Shown: piece after piece, positions 52,522-64,000 of the stretch
How positions within the stretch are numbered: position 1 is the first letter of the stretch
Layout of the letters: each line of letters begins with the position of its first letter
From: Methanoregula sp. PtaU1.Bin051
Lineage (GTDB): Archaea > Halobacteriota > Methanomicrobia > Methanomicrobiales > Methanospirillaceae
Direction of reading: 5' to 3'
NCBI GenBank assembly: GCA_002067895.1
Contig: MVRE01000014.1
Coordinates: 1-64,000, forward strand
Length of the DNA: 64,000 nt
Position numbers and translations under genes: made by a program
Notes under the pieces: generated by a model
Told to the model about the DNA's origin: nothing
What the model saw: the letters and a program-made list of their open reading frames with translations, nothing else
Databases searched by the model: none

Positions 52522-52603
52522 GGCGCTAGGCCGGAACTAGCGTCCATGCTCATCGCTTTTTTGCCCTGCCGCCCCTATATTGATCCCGGAGATAAAGGCA
52601 ATC

Positions 52604-53836
52604 TTGAAACAGATAACGGTACAGAATAGCAGCACGCCGGCGGAAAAGGCGAAAGATTACCGGTTTACTAAGCGCATGAAAAGCACGCCCCGCTCCTTCA
52701 TCCGCGAGATTCTCAAAGTAACGCAGAGCCCCGATGTCATATCATTTGCCGGTGGGCTCCCGAACCCGGCACTGATCGATACGGCCGGCATCGCAAAGGC
52801 CGCACGGGCAGTACTTGCGCGGGACGGCAGCAAAGCCCTGCAGTACGCAACGACTGAAGGTGATCCATCCCTGCGGGAATTCATCTCAGAGCGGTACAAA
52901 AAGAGGCTTGGGCTCGACATACCGGCAGACGAAATCCTGATCACAAATGGTTCACAGCAGTGCCTCGATCTCATCGGGAAGGTGTTCATCGACCCGAAGG
53001 ATGACATAGCAATCGAACGCCCCGGTTACCTCGGGGCGATCCAGGCATTCTCGCTTTACGAGCCGCGGTTCCATGCAATCCCGCTCGGAGATAACGGGCC
53101 GGATCCATCAGTTCTGGAACGTACAGTTAAGAGACACCGAATCCGGCTGATGTACGGGATCCCCAATTCCCAGAATCCCTCCGGGATAACGTACTCGGCG
53201 CAACGAAGGGAGGAGACCGCGCAGATCCTAGCCGGAACCAGTGCGATCTTTGTCGAGGACGATGCCTATGGCGAACTGACGTTCTCAGGAAGAACTCTCC
53301 CCTCCATGCGCAGCAGCCTTCCGGACCAGACGATACTTACCGGCTCGTTCTCCAAGATTCTTGCACCGGGCATGCGTCTCGGGTGGATCAGTGCACCGCC
53401 GCCAGTTATGGAAAAGATCATCGTCGCAAAACAGGCAACGGACCTCCATTCCAACTACCTGTCCCAGCGGATCGCCTCGCAGTACCTATCGGAGAACAAC
53501 ATTGACGCTCACATCACGAATATCCGGAACGCATACCATGCGCAGTGCACCTGCATGCTTGACAGGATCAGGGCAGAATTCCCGGACGGGGTCCGGTACA
53601 CGAAACCAGCGGGGGGCATGTTTATCTGGATCACGCTTCCTGCAGGCTGTTGCTCGATGGAGGTTTTTGAATCGGCGTTAAAGGAGCACATCGCGGTGCT
53701 CCCGGGAATCCCGTTCTATGTTGACGGAGGCGGGACTGACACGCTCCGGCTGAACTTCTCAAACTCGGACGAAATGAAGATCCGGGCCGGTATACAAAAG
53801 CTCGGTTCTGTTATTGCAGCACTCTCCGGCGCATGA
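52604..53836 (+). CDS. PLP-dependent class I aminotransferase (2-aminoadipate/aromatic type)
   Basis: About 410 residues. SFIREILKVTQSPDVISFAGGLPNP (residues about 30-55) and later GIPNSQNPSGITYS, EDDAYGELTF and the PLP-lysine TGSFSKILAPGMRLGWI place it with MocR-like/LysN-type fold-I aminotransferases. It transfers amino groups between 2-oxoglutarate and aromatic, branched or aminoadipate substrates. TTG 52604 is preferred (GGAG upstream, spacing 11); TTG 52580 or ATG 52676 are alternatives, the last cutting into the conserved start. It stands alone. Confidence 0.88.
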   Translation: MKQITVQNSSTPAEKAKDYRFTKRMKSTPRSFIREILKVTQSPDVISFAGGLPNPALIDTAGIAKAARAVLARDGSKALQYATTEGDPSLREFISERYKKRLGLDIPADEILITNGSQQCLDLIGKVFIDPKDDIAIERPGYLGAIQAFSLYEPRFHAIPLGDNGPDPSVLERTVKRHRIRLMYGIPNSQNPSGITYSAQRREETAQILAGTSAIFVEDDAYGELTFSGRTLPSMRSSLPDQTILTGSFSKILAPGMRLGWISAPPPVMEKIIVAKQATDLHSNYLSQRIASQYLSENNIDAHITNIRNAYHAQCTCMLDRIRAEFPDGVRYTKPAGGMFIWITLPAGCCSMEVFESALKEHIAVLPGIPFYVDGGGTDTLRLNFSNSDEMKIRAGIQKLGSVIAALSGA

Positions 53837-53991: not shown

Positions 53992-54045
53992 AGTCAGGAA
54001 CATGGACGTACGTAACAATAACCCGGGTAAAGGAGTAACCGGCTC

Positions 54046-57000
54046 ATGAGCAGGACAGACGCAGAGAAGCTGTTGCATCAGGGGATCGGGCTCTATGATC
54101 TTGGCAGGTATGCCGAAGCCATCATCATGTTCGACAAGGCGCTTGCTGCGTTCCCGAACCTTGCCAAGGCATATTACTTCAAGGGCATTGCATTATACGA
54201 CCAGGGCAGGTATGCAGAAGCGGTTGCAGCATACGACCAGGCGATCCAGATCGAACCTTCCGACATAAATGCCTGGTACAATAAGGCGGCTACACTCACC
54301 CAGATCGGCAGAATCGAGGAGGCGCTCGCGGCATGCGACCGGCTTCTTGCTATCAAGTTTGACAATGCAGAAGGCTGGATCTTAAAAGGCATCGCACTAT
54401 ACGAGCTTGGAAAGTTCAAGGAAGCCATCACGGCATACGACCATGCCCTCACCGTTGACCCCCGCCATGCCAAGGTACATTACAACAGGGGCGTTGCGCT
54501 CGCAGATCTCGGCCGGCATGTCGAAGCCATCGCCTCGTATGAGAAAGCGATCGAAATCGTGCCGACCTACGCAAGGGCATATTACAACAAGGGGATATCC
54601 CTTTTCGAGATTGGGCGGTATGACGAAGCGCTCACGGCGCTGGACCAAGCATTCGCCCTCGACCCGACCGACATCTGGGTCTGGTACTTCAAGAGTTTCA
54701 TCTATGCAAAACAGGAGAAATACGAGGATGCGGCACTCGCTGCTGACCGCTTCCTTGCCCATGAGCCAAAACAGGCCGATCTCCTGCTGATCAAGGGGAT
54801 AGCGGATTACAAGAGGGGCCAGCTCGCCGATGCCGTAGCGACGCTAAATCTTGCGCTCGAGGTCAACCCGAAACTTACCGATGCATGGCTGTACAAGGGT
54901 CTGTGCGAAAGCCAGAGCGGCCGGTTCGACGATGCCGTTTTTGCCTTTAACAAGGCAGCGGAGATCAACCCGGAAAACGCTCAGGTTCTGTTCCAGCGTG
55001 GTATCGCCCGTGCCGCTCAGAAGAAATACCGGGAATCCGTTGCCGATTTCGATGCCGCCCTGGCAATCGAGCCGGACAACCCGGTCATCCTCCTGAAAAA
55101 AGGGATGGCGTGCGTACGAATCCACCGGTACGAGGACGCCCTTGACGCCCTGAACCGTTCCCTGCAGCTGAAGCCTGACGATGCACATTCGTTTTATTTA
55201 AAGGGCATCGCCCTCACCCGGCTCGGGCGCCATGCTGAGGCAATTGAGTCCTTCGAACAGGCGCTTGAAACGGATCCCGACTGTGCCATGGCCGCATACC
55301 AGCAGGGGGTCTGCTATACAAGCCTCAGGAAATTCGGCGATGCCATCAAGGCCTTCGATCGTGCCGCTGCGATCCGCCCCACGTTCTCCCTCGCTGTATA
55401 CCATAAGGGGTTTGCCCTTTCACGAATCGGCAGGAACGATGAGGCCATCACAGAATTCGATCGCACGATCGCACTAGACCCTGAATACGCGCCTGCGTAC
55501 CACCAGAAGGGCGTAATCCTTTCAAAACTGAAACGCTACCCGGAAGCCATCAACGCTTTCGAGCGGAGTATCGCGATCAAACCAGCTTATGCACAGGCAT
55601 ACTACGACAAGGCTCTGGCGCTGGTCGCGCTCGAAAAATACGGCGAGGCCGTCGAAGTCTTCGATCAGGCTCTCCTGATCAACAGGAATTACGTAAATGC
55701 CCACCTGAATAGGGGGCTTGCATTGCTGGCTCTCCACCGGATCGATGAAGCAATCGTTTCGCTCGATCACGTGCTCGAAATCGAGCCCGAGCACGAACAG
55801 GCCCTAACAAGCAAGGCAAAGGCGCTCGTAGCGCTCGAGCGTTATGACGACGCTGTGAAGGTCTACGAGGCGCTGCTCAGGATATCGCCATCGGCAGTAA
55901 ATATCCTCTATGAGAGGGGTAAAGCCTTAATCCGGCTCCACCGTTTTACGGAAGCCGTCGAAGCGCTCAACAGCGCTCTTGAACAGAACCCCGCCCTGAC
56001 AGATGGCTGGCTGTACAAAGGGATCGCCCTTGCAGGTGAGGGGTTCCACAAGGAAGCCCTCGATGCCTATGACAAGGCCATCCGGATCAACCCTTCCCTT
56101 TCCGAGGCTATTGCAAGGAAAGGGATCTCATTCATCCGGATGGATGAATACGACGAAGCTGTCGCGGCAATCAACCATGCACTCGAACTCAACCCCAATG
56201 ACGACCGTGCATGGTGCTACAAGGGGTTTGCGCTCATCCGGCTGGAACGGTTCGATGAAGCGGTCCGGGCCTTCGACAAAGCGATCGAGATCAACCGCAG
56301 GTGCGTCCATGCCTATTTCGAGAAAGGCAACGCTCTCACCCGGCTCGGGCGCCAGCTCGAGGCCGTCGTCTCCTATGACAAAGCGCTTGAGATCGACCCG
56401 GAGAACGCAAAAGTATATTTCCAGAAAGGCGTTGCCCTCGCACAGAAAGAGCGGTACGACGAAGCGATCTCGGCATTCGAGGCTGCCCTCGAACGGGATC
56501 CCCGTAATGCACAGGGACTGTACTACCTTGGTATCGCGCTCGCCGGACGGGAGCGTTATGCGGAGGCCATCGAGGTCTTCAAGAAATCCTTATCGCTGGT
56601 CCCAGATGACGCCCAGGCATTCTATTACGAGGGCATTGCCCACATCCAGTGCGGCCAGTTCAACGAGGCTGTAAAAGCGTTCGATGCTGCAATCCTGCTC
56701 GAACCATCCCATGCGATGGCGTACTATTACAAGGGGATAGCACTGATCCAGGCGTTGGAATATACGTATGCTATTGAATCGCTTGCGAAGGCTGTAGAGA
56801 TCGACCCGACGGTCACCGATTCATGGATGTACCGCGGCATCGCATTGTTCCAGCTCGAAAAATACGGGGAGGCGATCGAGGCGTTCGACCGCCACCTTGC
56901 TGCAAACCCTTCATCGGCTGATTCGCTGATGTACCGGGGCAATGCCCTGATGAAGACATCCCGGTTTACCGAGGCTGCCGATACATTCGACCGCGTGCTC

Positions 57001-60000
57001 ACGCTCAATCCTGCAAACGTCGATGCATGGCTGGAAAAGGGCAACGCTCTCTACAATGCAGGCATAAAACAGGATGCGCTGGTGGCGTATACCAAGTCCC
57101 TGGAAGTGGATCCCAATCGTGCCGAGGCGTGGACACTGAAAGGCAATACCCTGTATGAAATCGGCAGGCTCCAGGATGCAGTCGGGGCCTACAATAAAGC
57201 CCTTGATCTCAACCCGTCTCTCGAGGAGGTCTGGATGCGGAGGGGGGATGCCCTCAACGAACTTGGAAAGACGGCGGAAGCGGTCAGTTCATACCAGAAA
57301 TCGTTAAATATCGACCCGGACCAGGTGCCTGTCTGGGTCAGGAAAGGCCGCGCCCTCTTTGTTCTCGGGAGGTACCAGGACGCCATCGATGCGCTGGATA
57401 ACGCGATTGCGCTCGACCAGCGGAATATCGACGCATTTTATTTCAAGGCGCTCGCTCTCGAAAAGATAAACCGTAACGATGATGCGATCCGCGTCTTCGA
57501 GCTCCTGCTGGAATTCGATCCCGCTTTTGCGAAAGCCCATTACCACCGTGGAACGCTGCTCATGTACGCAGGAAGGCAGCGGGATGCCATCGCCGCATTC
57601 GATTCCGCAATCGCGATCGAGCCAGACTGTGCCCCTGCATGGTACTTCAGAGGCAGGGCTCTTTCAGATACCGGCAGGTTTCAGGATGCCCTCGATGCCT
57701 TCAACCGGGCCATTGAAACCGACCCCAATTACACCGACGCATATTACCATAAAGGGTTCGCGCTCGTCAAGCTGGGAAAGTATACCGAGGCGATCGAATC
57801 GTTTGATACCAACCTGACGCGGGACCCGGGCAACGCCATGGGTCATTTCTACAAGGGATTCGTGCTTGCAAAACTCCAGCAGTACGATGATGCGCTTGCA
57901 GCTTTCGACCGTGCGCTTACCTATAGTCCGGACAACCCGCTGACTCAGTACCATCGCGGCAGAACGCTTTCGGATCTCGGGAGGCACAGCGAGGCTGTTA
58001 CCGCTTTCGAGAAGACTCTTGCACAGAAGCCCGGTTACACGGATGCACGGATGCGCATGGGGATCTCGCTGTACCAGCTTGGCCGATACCAGGAGTCGAT
58101 AGCTGCATTTGATGCAGTGCTCGATACGAACGTGAATAATTTCCATGCCTATTACCAGAAAGGGCTTGCCCTTTACTGCCTCGGGCAGTATGCCGAAGCG
58201 CTCGATGCTTTCGACAGGGCGCTGGAGATCGACTCCGGTTATACAGATGCATATTTCCAGAAGGGGCTCACGCTTATCGCACTCGAGCAGTATCCCGAAG
58301 CGATCTCGCCGCTCACACACACGATCGGGCTTGACCCGGGCCGCGCCATGGCGCATTACTATCTCGGCATTGCGTATGAAAGGAAAGGAGAGTTTGAATC
58401 AGCGGTCAGCGCCTTGAACCGTGCTGTCGCACTCATGCCGAAATACGCACCGGCACGGTACGAGAAAGGACGCTGTCTGATAACGCTCGGACTGACGACG
58501 GACGCCATCGAAGCCTTTGAAAACACCCTTGAACTGGACCCGGCACATGCCGATGCAGCGCTCCAGAAAGGACTTGCCCTGTACGGTCTCGGGCGGTACG
58601 AGGAAGCGCTCGTGGCATACGATCATGCGATCGATATTAACAGAACTTCAGCACCTGCATGGTACCACAAGGGTGTTGCCCTGTGTGCAGTCGAACAGTA
58701 TGAAAAGGCTGTCGATGCTTTTGATACCTCGCTGCAATATGATGAGGCAAACCCCGAGGCATATTTCGAAAAGGGCATCGCCCAGATCCACCTGAACCGG
58801 CACCGGGAAGCAATAGAGTCGTTCGACAGGGTGCTTGCGATAGTCCCCCACTATGCGAAGGCGTTCTTCCATAAAGGTATAGCACTCTATTCGTGCGGGA
58901 TGTTCAACGAGGCAGTCCTTGCGTTTAATATAGCATTGGAGATCGATCCGTCCGATGCAAAAGCTGCCTTCTACAAAGGGCTCTCCTTTGCCAGTCTCGA
59001 AGACCATCCCTCTGCCATCTTGGCTTTTGGCGAATCCCTGTCCCTTGACCCTGATAAGGCGGAGACCCGGTTCAACAAAGGATTATCGCTTGCTGCGCTC
59101 GCTCGGCATAACGAGGCGATTGCAGAGTTCGATGCGGCGATCTCAATTGACCCGGGTTACACCGATGCCATCTACAACCGCGCGCTTTCGCTCGCCGAAA
59201 TCGGGTCCTTTGCCGATGCCATCGAGGCATTAAACAAAGTCCTTGAAAAGAACCCGAAACTCGCCAATGGCTGGGTGATCCGCGGGATCTGCCTTGCATC
59301 TCTCGAGAGGCACCAGGATGCACTCCTCTCGTACGGGAATGCACTGGAGATTGATGCCGGGAATCCGCATACATGGTATTACACCGGAAAAGCCCACCTT
59401 GCGCTGAATAATCCGGAAGATGCAATAAAAGCATTTGACCGTGCCATCGCGCTTGACCCGGAATTTGGCGAGGCGCATTTCCGGAGAGGCATGGCCCTTT
59501 TCATCATGAAGGAGTACGAGAAGGCAGCCGATGCATATGCTGAAGCCCAGATCCGCATGCCCGAAGACCCTGATGTCAGCATCCAGCGGGGGCGGGCTCT
59601 CCTCCATCTTGGCAAAACCGATGTGGCGTTGCAGGCATTCGATGCAGTAATTGCTCGGGACACGTCAAACGTGCAGGCGCTGTACTGGCGGGCACGGGCG
59701 TTCGACAGAATGGGGGACGGTAAGAAAGCTGTCGCGGCATACACAAGGGTACTGAAAACGAGTCCGGACTGCAGCCGCGCGTACTATTACAAGGGACGTG
59801 CCCTTGCCGGTATGGGACAGCATGCCCCGGCTATCGACGCCTACCGGCATGCACTGGAAATCGAGCCGTCTTCTGCGAGAGGCTGGATCGCTCAGGGTGT
59901 ATCCCTCTTTGCCCTGTCCCGGTTTGAGGATGCGGTACGTTCGTTCGAGTCGGCCCTCTCTATTGACCCGCATGATGTTCAGGCAGCACTCCTCAGGGGA

Positions 60001-63000
60001 CGGTGTCTCAACCGCCTCGAACGGTATGAGGAAGCGATACCTGCATTCGACACGGCGATCGCCAATGATTCCGGTAACGGCGATGCGTTTTATGGCAAAG
60101 GTCTTGCTCTATTCCACCTCGGGAAGTACCGGGATGCGATCATGGCATTTGACAGGGCTCTTGGCGTTGTACCCGAATGTGCCCAGGCCCACTACCACCG
60201 CGGACTGGCACTGTCGGAAATCGGCGAATATGTTAAGGCGTGCGAGGCATTCGGGCAGTCCCTGAAGTACGGGCCTGATAATCCCCGTGCATACTATGCC
60301 CAGGGAATGGTCCTTGCCCATCTCGGACAGCATGCGGAAGCCATCGCTGCATTTGACAAGGCCCTCTTGAAGAATCCCCATATGGCCCATGCATGGTACG
60401 ACCGGGGAACCGTGCTTGCCGAAACTGGTAAAGATGACGAAGCTCTGCAGTCGTTCGACCGGGCGATCGCCCTGAACCCTAACTATACGACAGCATACCA
60501 TGACAAGGGGCTTGCACTCATGCGCCTCTCACGGCCGATGGATGCGGTCCGTGCATTTGATTCTGCACTGGCCGTGGATCCACAGTTTACGGAGGTGGCA
60601 TACGATAAGGGGCTCGCCTTGTTAAAGGCCGGCAACTATGCTGCTGCAAACGATGCATTCGGATACGTCCTGGAAATGACACCGAACGATAACCGGGCAC
60701 ACTTCCAGAAAGGACGTGCGCTCGCTTTCGCGGGAAAACACGGGGATGCCATTGAATCGTTCAACCGGGCACTTGAGAACGGGCCAGCCGATCCGGCAGT
60801 CCTATTCGAGAAAGGTCGCAGTGAATCGGCACTGGGCCGGTACGAGGACGCACTCTCATCGTTCGAACGGACGCTCGCACAGGACTCCCGGAACAGTGCA
60901 GCCTTCCATGAAAAGGGAAGGGCGCTCTCCGCCCTTGGCCGCAAGGAAGATTCTGTTGAGGCTTACAATGAGGCAATCAGGCTGGACCCGGCCGATTTCA
61001 GGCATCACCTGTCCAAGGGACAGGTGTTGTATGATCTCTCCCGTTTTGATGACACAATTGCGGCCTGCGACAGCGCGCTTTCCACGGCGCCGGAAAATGC
61101 CGATGTGCACGAACTTAAGGGAAAGGCACTCTACCGCTTGAACAGATTCGAAGATGCCGTCATCTCGTTCGAGCATGCCATTGACAATGAGAGCACCCGT
61201 ACATCCCTGTGGGTATGCAAAGGACTTTCCCTCTACCGCCTTGGCAGGTTCAAGGAATCGATCGAGTCATTCTCAAAAGCGCTGAAACGGGAGCCGTCCA
61301 ACGAACGCTCGCTCATCTATCGCGGCAAAGCGTATTTCAGGCTCGGCAGGTTCAACGAGGCGCTCGGCATGTTCGAACGACTGCTCGCCCATGACGAACA
61401 GCATGCCGGTGGCTGGTACTACAAGGGATTGTCATATGAGGCACTCAACCGCCATGCCGACGCACTTGCCGCCTACAACAGTGCTCTTGGGAGCGACTCA
61501 TCCTGCGCCCCTGCATGGTTCCATAAAGGATTGATGTTACATGCCCTCGGCCAGTATGAGGAGGCCATCCTTGCGTTCGATTTCGCACTCGAGATCATGA
61601 AGGGGCATTATCCAATCCTCTTTGCCAAGGCAAAATCCCTTGCTCAGCTCTCCAGGTTCGATGATGCCCTGTCGGTTCTCGATGCTGCACTCGCTGTCGA
61701 AAACACGGATCCCCGCATCTGGATCCTGCACGGCAGTGTGCAGTACGAGGCGGGAAGGCCTGAAAATGCGATTGAGTCTTTTAACCGTGCTATTGGCCTT
61801 AAGCCAGATAGTACCACGGCCATTTACCTCAAGGGAAAGGTCCTGTCGGATATCGGGCGGACGGAGGAGGCCATTGCCTGTTACGAGCGCGTCCTAAGGA
61901 TAGATCAGTCCTGTGCCATGGCATGGTTCAGGAAAGGCGCGGCATTTGTCAGCTTGAAACAGTACGAGAATGCCGTCGGGATGTTCCGTACCGGCCTAAA
62001 CCTCAAGCCCCAGTATGCCAATGGCTGGTATGACCTCGCACTCGTGCTGTCAGAACTGAAAGACTACGACAATGCGATTGCTGCTTTCGACCATGCACTC
62101 GCCATCAACCCGAGATACACGAACGCGTATTACGACAAGGGTCTGGCACTGGCGCAGTTGAAACGACACAAGGAAGCAGTCAGTGCATTCGATGATGCAA
62201 TAGCCATCGACCGGAACTTTGCCGATGCCCATTTCAACAGGGGGCTCTCCCTTGTCCGGCTGGATCGCAGAACGGAAGCCGTCGCTGCTTTCGATACGGT
62301 GCTCTCAATCGACCCGCAGTATGCCCCGGCGGCATTCCAAAAAGGGTGCGCCCTCTACGATCTCCGGGACTATGAGCGTGCAATTGAAGCGTTCTACGAC
62401 GCAATTGCATACGATCCGTCACTTACCGATGCATACCTGCAACGCGGTCTTTCGTTCATGGCCCTCGACAAATTCAGGGATGCCATCGAATCATTTGATG
62501 TTGTCATTGATCGCGTTCCTACGTCCTACCTCGCCCACCAGCAGAAAGGGATTGCACTGCTCCGGCTCGGTATGTATGCCGATGCGGTGACTTATCTTTC
62601 AAAAGCGATCGGCATAGATGACCTGCATAGCAACGACCATTACGAGCTGGGTATCGCCCTCGGTGCCCTCGGGCGCGACGAAGATGCTGTTGTTGCATTT
62701 GACCGTGCAATAGGGCTTGATACCGTATTTGCCGATGCCCATATCAACAAGGCGTATGCACTCGAACGTCTGGGCCGGGATGCCGAGGCAATCTCATCGT
62801 TCGATGAATTCATCGCAATCAACCCGTCATTTGCCGATGCGTGGTATGACAAGGGAATGGCACTTGTCAGAATCGGAAAAGACGGAGATGCAGTTGCAGC
62901 ATTTGAACGTGCCCACCAGCTGGATCCTGCGAACGCAAAGATACTCTTCCATGCCGGGCAGGCACTCGTCCGTCTGGAGCGTGACGCCGAAGCAGTCAGC

Positions 63001-64000
63001 TTCTTTAATAAGGCCGTAACAATAGAGCCGGAGTTCCGCGAAGCTGTCCTTGACAAGGCACAAGCGCTGATGCGTCTTAACAGGTACGAAGAAGCGATCT
63101 TGGCATTCGGCCGGGTTTCTGAACTGGCCCCGGATCTTCCTGAACCATATTTCCAGCAGGGTCGTTGTTTCAACGTCCTTGAAAAGTATGCAGACGCTGT
63201 ACCCGCCTTTGATAAGTGCTTGGAGAGAGATCCTGCATTTGCCCCCGCATCGTATGAAAAAGGGATTGCTCTCTCACGTCTTGGACGTTATGAAGATGCC
63301 ATCGCTGCATTCGATGCAGCGATTGCAGCCAGGGGGGACTACGGTGAAGCATATCTTGACAAAGGGAGAGCATTATCTGCACTCGGCTGGAATGACAAGG
63401 CAACGGATGCGTTTGCGCACGCTGCTGAATATCTCGCTGGAAGTACAACGGCATTCCTTGAGAAAGGGGAATCGCTTCTCTTTAACGGCCGGTACGATGA
63501 AGCGGTCAAGGCATTCCAGGAGGTTCTCGAACTGGAACCTGATCATACCGAAGCCCTCTATCTCCTCGGGACGACATCCGTTGTCCTCCGGAAATACCAG
63601 GACGCCATCAGGACATTCGACCGGCTTCTCGCTGTCAACCCCGATAATCCCGATGCATGGTATGAGAAAGGGATCGCGCTTACCCGTCTGAAACGCCACG
63701 GGGACGCTGTTACAGCGTTCGAACAGGCAGCTGCGATCCGCCCGTCCCATTTTGATGCGCTGTACCACCGCGCAAACGCCCTCACCTCGCTGGAACGAGA
63801 TGAGGAGGCCGTTCAGGCATACGATGCTGCACTGGCAATCGACCCGTCCCATGCCCCATCGCTCCACCGGAAAGGTGCGGCGCTCCTGCGCCTGAAACGT
63901 TACCAGGATGCTGTGCGATCACTTGACAAGGCCCTTGATGCGGATCCCGAGTTCGCTGACGCCTTGTTTGACAAAGGCAGGGCGCTGTCGGCGCTCGGTA
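54046..64000 (+). CDS. Giant TPR-repeat protein, continues beyond the window
   Basis: One frame from ATG 54046 (GGAG at 54031-54034) to the window edge, 3,318 codons, with no stop found on reading the frame. After five residues it is entirely TPR. Units begin at 54061 and follow every 102 bases, giving 97 complete 34-residue repeats and part of a 98th. A typical unit is AYYFKGIALYDQGRYAEAVA, with Y4, G8, L/I11, A20, Y/F24, A27 and P32 all in place. Checks at 54175, 57643, 58663, 60397 and 63661 show whole multiples of 102 bases, so no net indel. There is no signal peptide, TM helix or other domain. Repeats are diverged, not copies. It should form a very long right-handed superhelix binding proteins or peptides in the cytoplasm. 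A catalytic or anchoring domain may lie beyond the edge. Confidence 0.95.
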   Translation, partial: MSRTDAEKLLHQGIGLYDLGRYAEAIIMFDKALAAFPNLAKAYYFKGIALYDQGRYAEAVAAYDQAIQIEPSDINAWYNKAATLTQIGRIEEALAACDRLLAIKFDNAEGWILKGIALYELGKFKEAITAYDHALTVDPRHAKVHYNRGVALADLGRHVEAIASYEKAIEIVPTYARAYYNKGISLFEIGRYDEALTALDQAFALDPTDIWVWYFKSFIYAKQEKYEDAALAADRFLAHEPKQADLLLIKGIADYKRGQLADAVATLNLALEVNPKLTDAWLYKGLCESQSGRFDDAVFAFNKAAEINPENAQVLFQRGIARAAQKKYRESVADFDAALAIEPDNPVILLKKGMACVRIHRYEDALDALNRSLQLKPDDAHSFYLKGIALTRLGRHAEAIESFEQALETDPDCAMAAYQQGVCYTSLRKFGDAIKAFDRAAAIRPTFSLAVYHKGFALSRIGRNDEAITEFDRTIALDPEYAPAYHQKGVILSKLKRYPEAINAFERSIAIKPAYAQAYYDKALALVALEKYGEAVEVFDQALLINRNYVNAHLNRGLALLALHRIDEAIVSLDHVLEIEPEHEQALTSKAKALVALERYDDAVKVYEALLRISPSAVNILYERGKALIRLHRFTEAVEALNSALEQNPALTDGWLYKGIALAGEGFHKEALDAYDKAIRINPSLSEAIARKGISFIRMDEYDEAVAAINHALELNPNDDRAWCYKGFALIRLERFDEAVRAFDKAIEINRRCVHAYFEKGNALTRLGRQLEAVVSYDKALEIDPENAKVYFQKGVALAQKERYDEAISAFEAALERDPRNAQGLYYLGIALAGRERYAEAIEVFKKSLSLVPDDAQAFYYEGIAHIQCGQFNEAVKAFDAAILLEPSHAMAYYYKGIALIQALEYTYAIESLAKAVEIDPTVTDSWMYRGIALFQLEKYGEAIEAFDRHLAANPSSADSLMYRGNALMKTSRFTEAADTFDRVLTLNPANVDAWLEKGNALYNAGIKQDALVAYTKSLEVDPNRAEAWTLKGNTLYEIGRLQDAVGAYNKALDLNPSLEEVWMRRGDALNELGKTAEAVSSYQKSLNIDPDQVPVWVRKGRALFVLGRYQDAIDALDNAIALDQRNIDAFYFKALALEKINRNDDAIRVFELLLEFDPAFAKAHYHRGTLLMYAGRQRDAIAAFDSAIAIEPDCAPAWYFRGRALSDTGRFQDALDAFNRAIETDPNYTDAYYHKGFALVKLGKYTEAIESFDTNLTRDPGNAMGHFYKGFVLAKLQQYDDALAAFDRALTYSPDNPLTQYHRGRTLSDLGRHSEAVTAFEKTLAQKPGYTDARMRMGISLYQLGRYQESIAAFDAVLDTNVNNFHAYYQKGLALYCLGQYAEALDAFDRALEIDSGYTDAYFQKGLTLIALEQYPEAISPLTHTIGLDPGRAMAHYYLGIAYERKGEFESAVSALNRAVALMPKYAPARYEKGRCLITLGLTTDAIEAFENTLELDPAHADAALQKGLALYGLGRYEEALVAYDHAIDINRTSAPAWYHKGVALCAVEQYEKAVDAFDTSLQYDEANPEAYFEKGIAQIHLNRHREAIESFDRVLAIVPHYAKAFFHKGIALYSCGMFNEAVLAFNIALEIDPSDAKAAFYKGLSFASLEDHPSAILAFGESLSLDPDKAETRFNKGLSLAALARHNEAIAEFDAAISIDPGYTDAIYNRALSLAEIGSFADAIEALNKVLEKNPKLANGWVIRGICLASLERHQDALLSYGNALEIDAGNPHTWYYTGKAHLALNNPEDAIKAFDRAIALDPEFGEAHFRRGMALFIMKEYEKAADAYAEAQIRMPEDPDVSIQRGRALLHLGKTDVALQAFDAVIARDTSNVQALYWRARAFDRMGDGKKAVAAYTRVLKTSPDCSRAYYYKGRALAGMGQHAPAIDAYRHALEIEPSSARGWIAQGVSLFALSRFEDAVRSFESALSIDPHDVQAALLRGRCLNRLERYEEAIPAFDTAIANDSGNGDAFYGKGLALFHLGKYRDAIMAFDRALGVVPECAQAHYHRGLALSEIGEYVKACEAFGQSLKYGPDNPRAYYAQGMVLAHLGQHAEAIAAFDKALLKNPHMAHAWYDRGTVLAETGKDDEALQSFDRAIALNPNYTTAYHDKGLALMRLSRPMDAVRAFDSALAVDPQFTEVAYDKGLALLKAGNYAAANDAFGYVLEMTPNDNRAHFQKGRALAFAGKHGDAIESFNRALENGPADPAVLFEKGRSESALGRYEDALSSFERTLAQDSRNSAAFHEKGRALSALGRKEDSVEAYNEAIRLDPADFRHHLSKGQVLYDLSRFDDTIAACDSALSTAPENADVHELKGKALYRLNRFEDAVISFEHAIDNESTRTSLWVCKGLSLYRLGRFKESIESFSKALKREPSNERSLIYRGKAYFRLGRFNEALGMFERLLAHDEQHAGGWYYKGLSYEALNRHADALAAYNSALGSDSSCAPAWFHKGLMLHALGQYEEAILAFDFALEIMKGHYPILFAKAKSLAQLSRFDDALSVLDAALAVENTDPRIWILHGSVQYEAGRPENAIESFNRAIGLKPDSTTAIYLKGKVLSDIGRTEEAIACYERVLRIDQSCAMAWFRKGAAFVSLKQYENAVGMFRTGLNLKPQYANGWYDLALVLSELKDYDNAIAAFDHALAINPRYTNAYYDKGLALAQLKRHKEAVSAFDDAIAIDRNFADAHFNRGLSLVRLDRRTEAVAAFDTVLSIDPQYAPAAFQKGCALYDLRDYERAIEAFYDAIAYDPSLTDAYLQRGLSFMALDKFRDAIESFDVVIDRVPTSYLAHQQKGIALLRLGMYADAVTYLSKAIGIDDLHSNDHYELGIALGALGRDEDAVVAFDRAIGLDTVFADAHINKAYALERLGRDAEAISSFDEFIAINPSFADAWYDKGMALVRIGKDGDAVAAFERAHQLDPANAKILFHAGQALVRLERDAEAVSFFNKAVTIEPEFREAVLDKAQALMRLNRYEEAILAFGRVSELAPDLPEPYFQQGRCFNVLEKYADAVPAFDKCLERDPAFAPASYEKGIALSRLGRYEDAIAAFDAAIAARGDYGEAYLDKGRALSALGWNDKATDAFAHAAEYLAGSTTAFLEKGESLLFNGRYDEAVKAFQEVLELEPDHTEALYLLGTTSVVLRKYQDAIRTFDRLLAVNPDNPDAWYEKGIALTRLKRHGDAVTAFEQAAAIRPSHFDALYHRANALTSLERDEEAVQAYDAALAIDPSHAPSLHRKGAALLRLKRYQDAVRSLDKALDADPEFADALFDKGRALSALG

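Follow-up and report, generated by a model that had tools for sequence, protein, structure and literature searches.

The window analysed here, a stretch of 64,000 nucleotides, is positions 1–64000 of a 108,141-bp contig and ends inside a giant gene composed entirely of TPR units (Table 1). On the forward strand, the frame 54046–63999 was open across 3,318 codons, equal to 97 complete 34-residue units, which agrees with the preliminary description of the window (at least 97 consecutive repeats in a frame of more than 3,300 codons). That description had placed the C-terminus beyond the window. Extending the frame along the contig reached a TAA stop at contig position 66390, 2,390 bases beyond the window edge, giving a full protein of 4,114 aa (~457 kDa, pI 5.4) with 121 TPRs. 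The ATG start was kept across orthologues when their upstream sequences were compared. In most loci the gene order was aminotransferase, giant gene, convergent membrane TPR gene, methyltransferase, dnaJ and dnaK.

Table 1. Positions of the giant TPR gene, parts of its array and other genes discussed in the text
Feature	Position	Strand	Remarks
Giant TPR-only gene, in-window part	54046..64000	+	97 complete TPRs; ORF, translation, Pfam, unit segmentation
Shine-Dalgarno-like GGAG	54032..54035	+	10 nt 5' of the giant-gene ATG
TPR units 1–7	54046..54759	+	Among the best-conserved stretches; mean column entropy 0.44–0.92 bits vs ~1.3 overall
TPR units 1–32	54046..57309	+	AlphaFold2 model; contains 8-repeat stretch matching designed CTPR superhelix
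TPR units 61–92	60166..63429	+	AlphaFold2 model; central region, holds most length-change sites among orthologues
Upstream neighbour, class I/II aminotransferase	52580..53836	+	Next to the giant gene at most loci with an orthologue
Membrane-anchored TPR gene	contig 66508–67185 (L004:12508–13185)	-	TPRs between a signal-like N-terminus and a transmembrane segment at the C-terminus; converges on the giant gene; methyltransferase, dnaJ, dnaK and grpE genes come next
Second giant TPR gene	L019:5095–12666, genome contig C6	-	2,523 aa, ~73 repeats and a short tail

A segmentation script tiled the protein, from residue 1 to the last, with 121 TPR units of 34 residues; the irregularities were one inserted residue (R3639) and a final unit one residue short. 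The TPR signature, scored as G/A at frame position 13 (canonical TPR position 8), A/S at position 25 (canonical 20) and a large hydrophobic residue or C at position 29 (canonical 24), was kept in 118–119 of the 121 units. The protein is thus built of 34-residue helix-turn-helix units carrying the signature positions by which a TPR solenoid is recognised. The TPR profile search that the preliminary description had proposed gave TPR and TPR-like repeat families as the top models (TPR_1, 2,096 bits); among the best 25 of 49 Pfam hits there was no non-TPR domain, glycosyltransferase included, and the repeats reach the last residue. No transmembrane segment or signal was apparent in a hydropathy scan, in which the highest 19-residue mean was 1.32. 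The absence of signal, membrane and catalytic domains, also proposed earlier, holds for the full protein within these searches. Usual TPR arrays have 3–16 repeats (D'Andrea and Regan, as cited in PMC4304861). The earlier claim of a TPR-only solenoid far above that number is borne out by the 121 TPRs, the Pfam models and the modelled helices described below; the range is one observed in known members and not a requirement.

The units share ~31% identity on average, at every distance along the array, so the array is old. TRF detected no tandem array of a 102-bp unit in the DNA of the gene. We rejected chance or an assembly artefact as the source of the array on the basis of this unit identity, the missing TRF array and the presence of orthologues in 35 other genomes.

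Orthologues, selection and other giant TPR genes

Homologues in the Methanomicrobiales had been anticipated, and an orthologue was found in 36 of 232 genomes of this order, all in only two genera, Methanoregula and its sister genus; the closest named records came from Methanoregulaceae and Methanoregula MAGs. Within Methanoregula, 22 of the 23 genomes with a completeness of 90% or more carry the gene, which is single-copy and mostly syntenic. Some of the orthologues lie in single-contig genomes, and their colinearity with the window protein answers the concern, raised in the preliminary description, that the frame might reflect misassembly or frame errors. Identity across matched N-terminal stretches was 57–67%. 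Purifying selection acts on the gene from end to end: pairwise dN/dS was 0.07–0.15, all three thirds of the gene had low ratios, and pN/pS of the middle third was 0.13–0.35. By column entropy among orthologues, conservation was highest in units 1–7, and units at the C-terminus were conserved too. In one single-contig genome (G202, L072) the frame is broken into 3,236 + 1,966 aa, the whole span amounting to ~159 repeats; this may be a sequencing error or a decaying gene.

In river-sediment proteomics, a Methanomicrobiales archaeon was reported to have a 516.17-kDa TPR protein, A0A2I0PCX3, as its best-represented protein and the one of highest abundance (PMC10384328); that paper did not study the protein's function. 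The orthologues with 136 repeats have masses of 514–517 kDa, matching this value. From mass and taxon only, we infer that A0A2I0PCX3, a MAG protein, is an orthologue of the giant TPR protein. The open-access literature searched contained no description of the giant TPR protein or of repeat growth quantised by turns.

A second giant TPR gene in the same genome (Table 1) occurs only in the genus of the window and is located immediately downstream of a DnaJ-TPR gene (L019:12831–13799). Its one large indel is exactly 7 repeats missing in one orthologue, small changes occur near its units 9–11, and the charge period described below is absent in its protein. Another family of the same order includes a still longer TPR-only ORF of ~6,710 aa and 197 repeats, which has very few relatives, in genome G038 (L045 from 12802 into L046). 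The 197- and 115-repeat ORFs of this family lack a lag-8 signal. Antisense ORFs of up to 1,355 codons run opposite the TPR arrays of L045–L046 (G038) and L047 (G053), and are probably by-products of GC-rich repeat composition, not genes.

Predicted fold of the array

AlphaFold modelling on segments, suggested in the preliminary description, was carried out with AlphaFold2 on two 32-repeat pieces, and both were predicted with confidence to contain exactly 64 helices (mean pLDDT 92.9 for units 1–32 and 89.3 for units 61–92). In Foldseek comparisons, the model of units 1–32 superposed on the 16-repeat crystal structure of a designed CTPR, 9qhb, over 269 columns at an rmsd of 1.7 Å (TM 0.93 on the target), and matched the OGT superhelix with a TM of 0.79. 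The best PDB sequence match was also 9qhb (E 9e-110). CTPRs take eight repeats per superhelical turn (PMC7885266). Two observations on the natural protein relate to this turn, namely the fit of an 8-repeat stretch of the model to 9qhb at 1.7 Å and a charge period of 8.25 repeats across orthologues (see below), the number of repeats per turn itself being borrowed from the CTPR match.

Designed CTPRs rise by ~9 Å per repeat. If this rise applies, the predicted rod would have ~15 turns (14–20 across orthologues) and a length of roughly 110 nm. The CTPR8/16/20 proteins (PDB 8chy, 9qhb) share with the giant protein a 34-residue unit and gap-free stacking, but they are designed proteins with identical repeats, whereas the natural proteins consist of 112–159 non-identical repeats under individual selection. 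The closest natural superhelical TPR structures, those of OGT and SPINDLY (1w3b, 7y4i), have about a dozen repeats and a glycosyltransferase domain, while the giant protein is without a catalytic domain. The top Foldseek matches to the model also included the long TPR scaffold arrays of the eukaryotic proteins SKI3/TTC37, IFT-A TTC21 and Ctr9; these reach at most ~1,500 aa, their repeats are irregular and they include other segments, whereas the archaeal protein is three times longer and regular.

Length changes in blocks of eight repeats and the charge period

The 26 complete orthologues contained 112, 120, 121, 128, 134, 136, 144, 151 or 159 repeats, and in 21 of them the alignment-free count was a multiple of 8. 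Since repeats were counted protein by protein, independently of the unit alignment, a bias of the alignment towards 8 was rejected. In unit-level alignments, the indels comprised 8, 16 or 24 repeats at a time, apart from two of 7 repeats and one of a single repeat. Between individual genomes, for example, the array changed by –8 (G032 to G193), +8 (G179 to G188, G201 to G204, G174 to G175) or +16 (G205 to G208). The window protein is itself an exception, its 121 repeats corresponding to 120 + 8 – 7 relative to the 120-repeat form.

Parsimony gave 17 length events, counted by hand on a gene tree in which some nodes are weak, of which 14 were of 8 or 16 repeats and the remainder 7, 7 and 1. On the assumption that events are independent, 14 multiples of eight in 17 have P ~1e-10 against a chance of 1/8. 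Some of the changes by 8 units may stem from recombination at older duplications of the same size, in which case they would not be independent events. When only founding duplications with recognisable copies were counted, six were of 8 repeats and one of 7 (P ~2e-5). Indels were confined to roughly units 16–91 of the 120-unit frame, in which the tandem 8-blocks of different lineages begin at units 16, 36/40, 68, 74, 75 and 83. The blocks at the last four sites (68, 74, 75 and 83) showed background identity among the four lineages compared. These different start units and the non-homologous blocks at the last four sites indicate that the 8-blocks arose in separate founding events. Given the eight-repeat turn of CTPRs and the match of model and sequence to the 16-repeat CTPR, one evolutionary length step would correspond, to a good approximation, to one turn of the predicted rod.

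The eight-repeat step could alternatively be a mutational bias, in which an ancestral 8-repeat duplication seeded recombination and later changes reused the 816-bp homology, with no selection for turns. Recent copies are indeed near-identical: duplicated copies inside one lineage were 53–97% identical, and those in G174 were up to 97% identical across six units. Stacks of 8, 16 and 24 also occur at one site, as unequal crossing-over would give. The founding duplications, however, lie at several non-homologous sites. In lineages without duplications, moreover, an excess of lag-8 similarity was absent from both protein and DNA. These flat lag profiles argue against pre-existing homology as the cause of the step of eight, and there was no obvious substrate favouring 816 bp over 714 or 918 bp. 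We likewise rejected the idea that the entire array was built from an ancient 8-repeat super-repeat, since lag-8 identity was at background in the proteins examined for it (G000, G003, G004 and G032) and the DNA lag profiles were flat. A mutational origin also leaves aside the charge period of ~8 repeats, which persists outside the duplicated regions. We consider this explanation unlikely, though slightly less so than the two rivals taken up in the next section.

When net charge per repeat was averaged across orthologues in the 120-repeat frame, its strongest period was 8.25 repeats, which an array of 120 repeats cannot separate from 8.0. Against AR(1) noise, and with orthologues that are related and hence non-independent replicates, the period had P = 0.0005 in the preset band of 7.4–8.6 and P = 0.0065 over all periods. 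In the window protein alone it was not significant (P = 0.37). Its phase was equal in four clades. Helix-B positions 27 and 31 contributed most of the period, and about 3 of every 8 repeats carried a charge near –0.1 to –0.5, compared to –1.5 to –2.2 in the remaining repeats. We rejected the idea that the period is a by-product of 8-block duplications, because the signal became stronger once duplicated regions were removed (period 8.30, R2 0.29, P = 0.001). Conservation was only weakly periodic once autocorrelation had been taken into account (P = 0.04 in the preset band and 0.4 across all periods), and we gave this signal no weight.

Candidate roles of the array

We propose, with moderate confidence, that the protein is a cytoplasmic superhelical scaffold rod that presents a functional face once per turn, so that only length changes by whole turns survive. 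In this mechanism, a core protein at the level of the genus would fold into one continuous right-handed TPR superhelix that acts as a rod- or spring-like multivalent scaffold. A less acidic face, recurring every ~8 repeats, would contact a linear or periodic partner, which might be a nucleic acid, a filament, arrayed clients or an adjacent copy of the rod. Because such a rod would have to keep its rotational phase, insertions and deletions would survive only as whole turns of 8 repeats, occasionally 7. The preliminary description had left the role among scaffold, filament and capture of many partners; the scaffold or filament part is retained here, and the eight-repeat length blocks together with the ~8.25-repeat charge period narrow it to a phase-constrained superhelical rod.

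A related possibility is that the array is a mechanical spring or spacer, which sets the distance and rotation between conserved ends while its interior binds nothing in particular. The confinement of indels to the interior and the conservation of the units at both ends would fit such a role, whole-turn steps would hold the two ends in rotational register, and CTPRs behave as nanosprings (PMC8944806). Yet the middle-third pN/pS shows the interior to be under constraint as strong as that at the ends, and the charge stripe extends along the array, so we regard a pure spacer as improbable. We give a similarly low probability to a chaperone-linked scaffold, whose array would dock many Hsp70/Hsp40 clients or chaperones and whose eight-repeat step would reflect solenoid packing only: the dnaJ–dnaK genes near most loci (with grpE next where the flank reaches) and the DnaJ-TPR gene beside the second giant gene are in its favour, but the giant gene is convergent and not co-transcribed with the chaperone operon, and genome G011 keeps it without the chaperone neighbourhood. 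Hsp70/Hsp90 TPR-clamp co-chaperones are recognised by carboxylate-clamp residues within a three-TPR domain; the comparison made here was one of gene neighbourhoods.

The phase-constrained rod can be carried further by analogy with nebulin, in which a super-repeat of seven 35-residue repeats matches the thin-filament period and whole super-repeats occur in variable numbers (PMC7109182). Both are giant repeat proteins with a higher-order period, represented in the giant TPR protein by the eight-repeat quantum and the ~8.25-repeat charge period, its partner being hypothetical. The two differ in that their folds are unrelated and without homology, and the eight-repeat step of the TPR array is mostly invisible as ancestral sequence similarity. 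On this tentative and rather doubtful reading, the protein would be an archaeal "nebulin", a turn-quantised rod whose stripe lies in register with a periodic or linear partner, and thus a previously unrecognised structural or cytoskeletal element of Methanoregula, possibly among its most abundant proteins.

If the proposed rod is real, the evolution of a natural protein would directly display that protein's own three-dimensional helical period. Its natural length variants, already available, would make it a test object for what very long solenoids do and for binding by one face, and with 14–20 turns it would offer a natural counterpart to designers of TPR nanosprings. For the organisms themselves, it would mean that widespread wetland methanogens contain a possibly abundant, hitherto unstudied structural protein of 110–145 nm.
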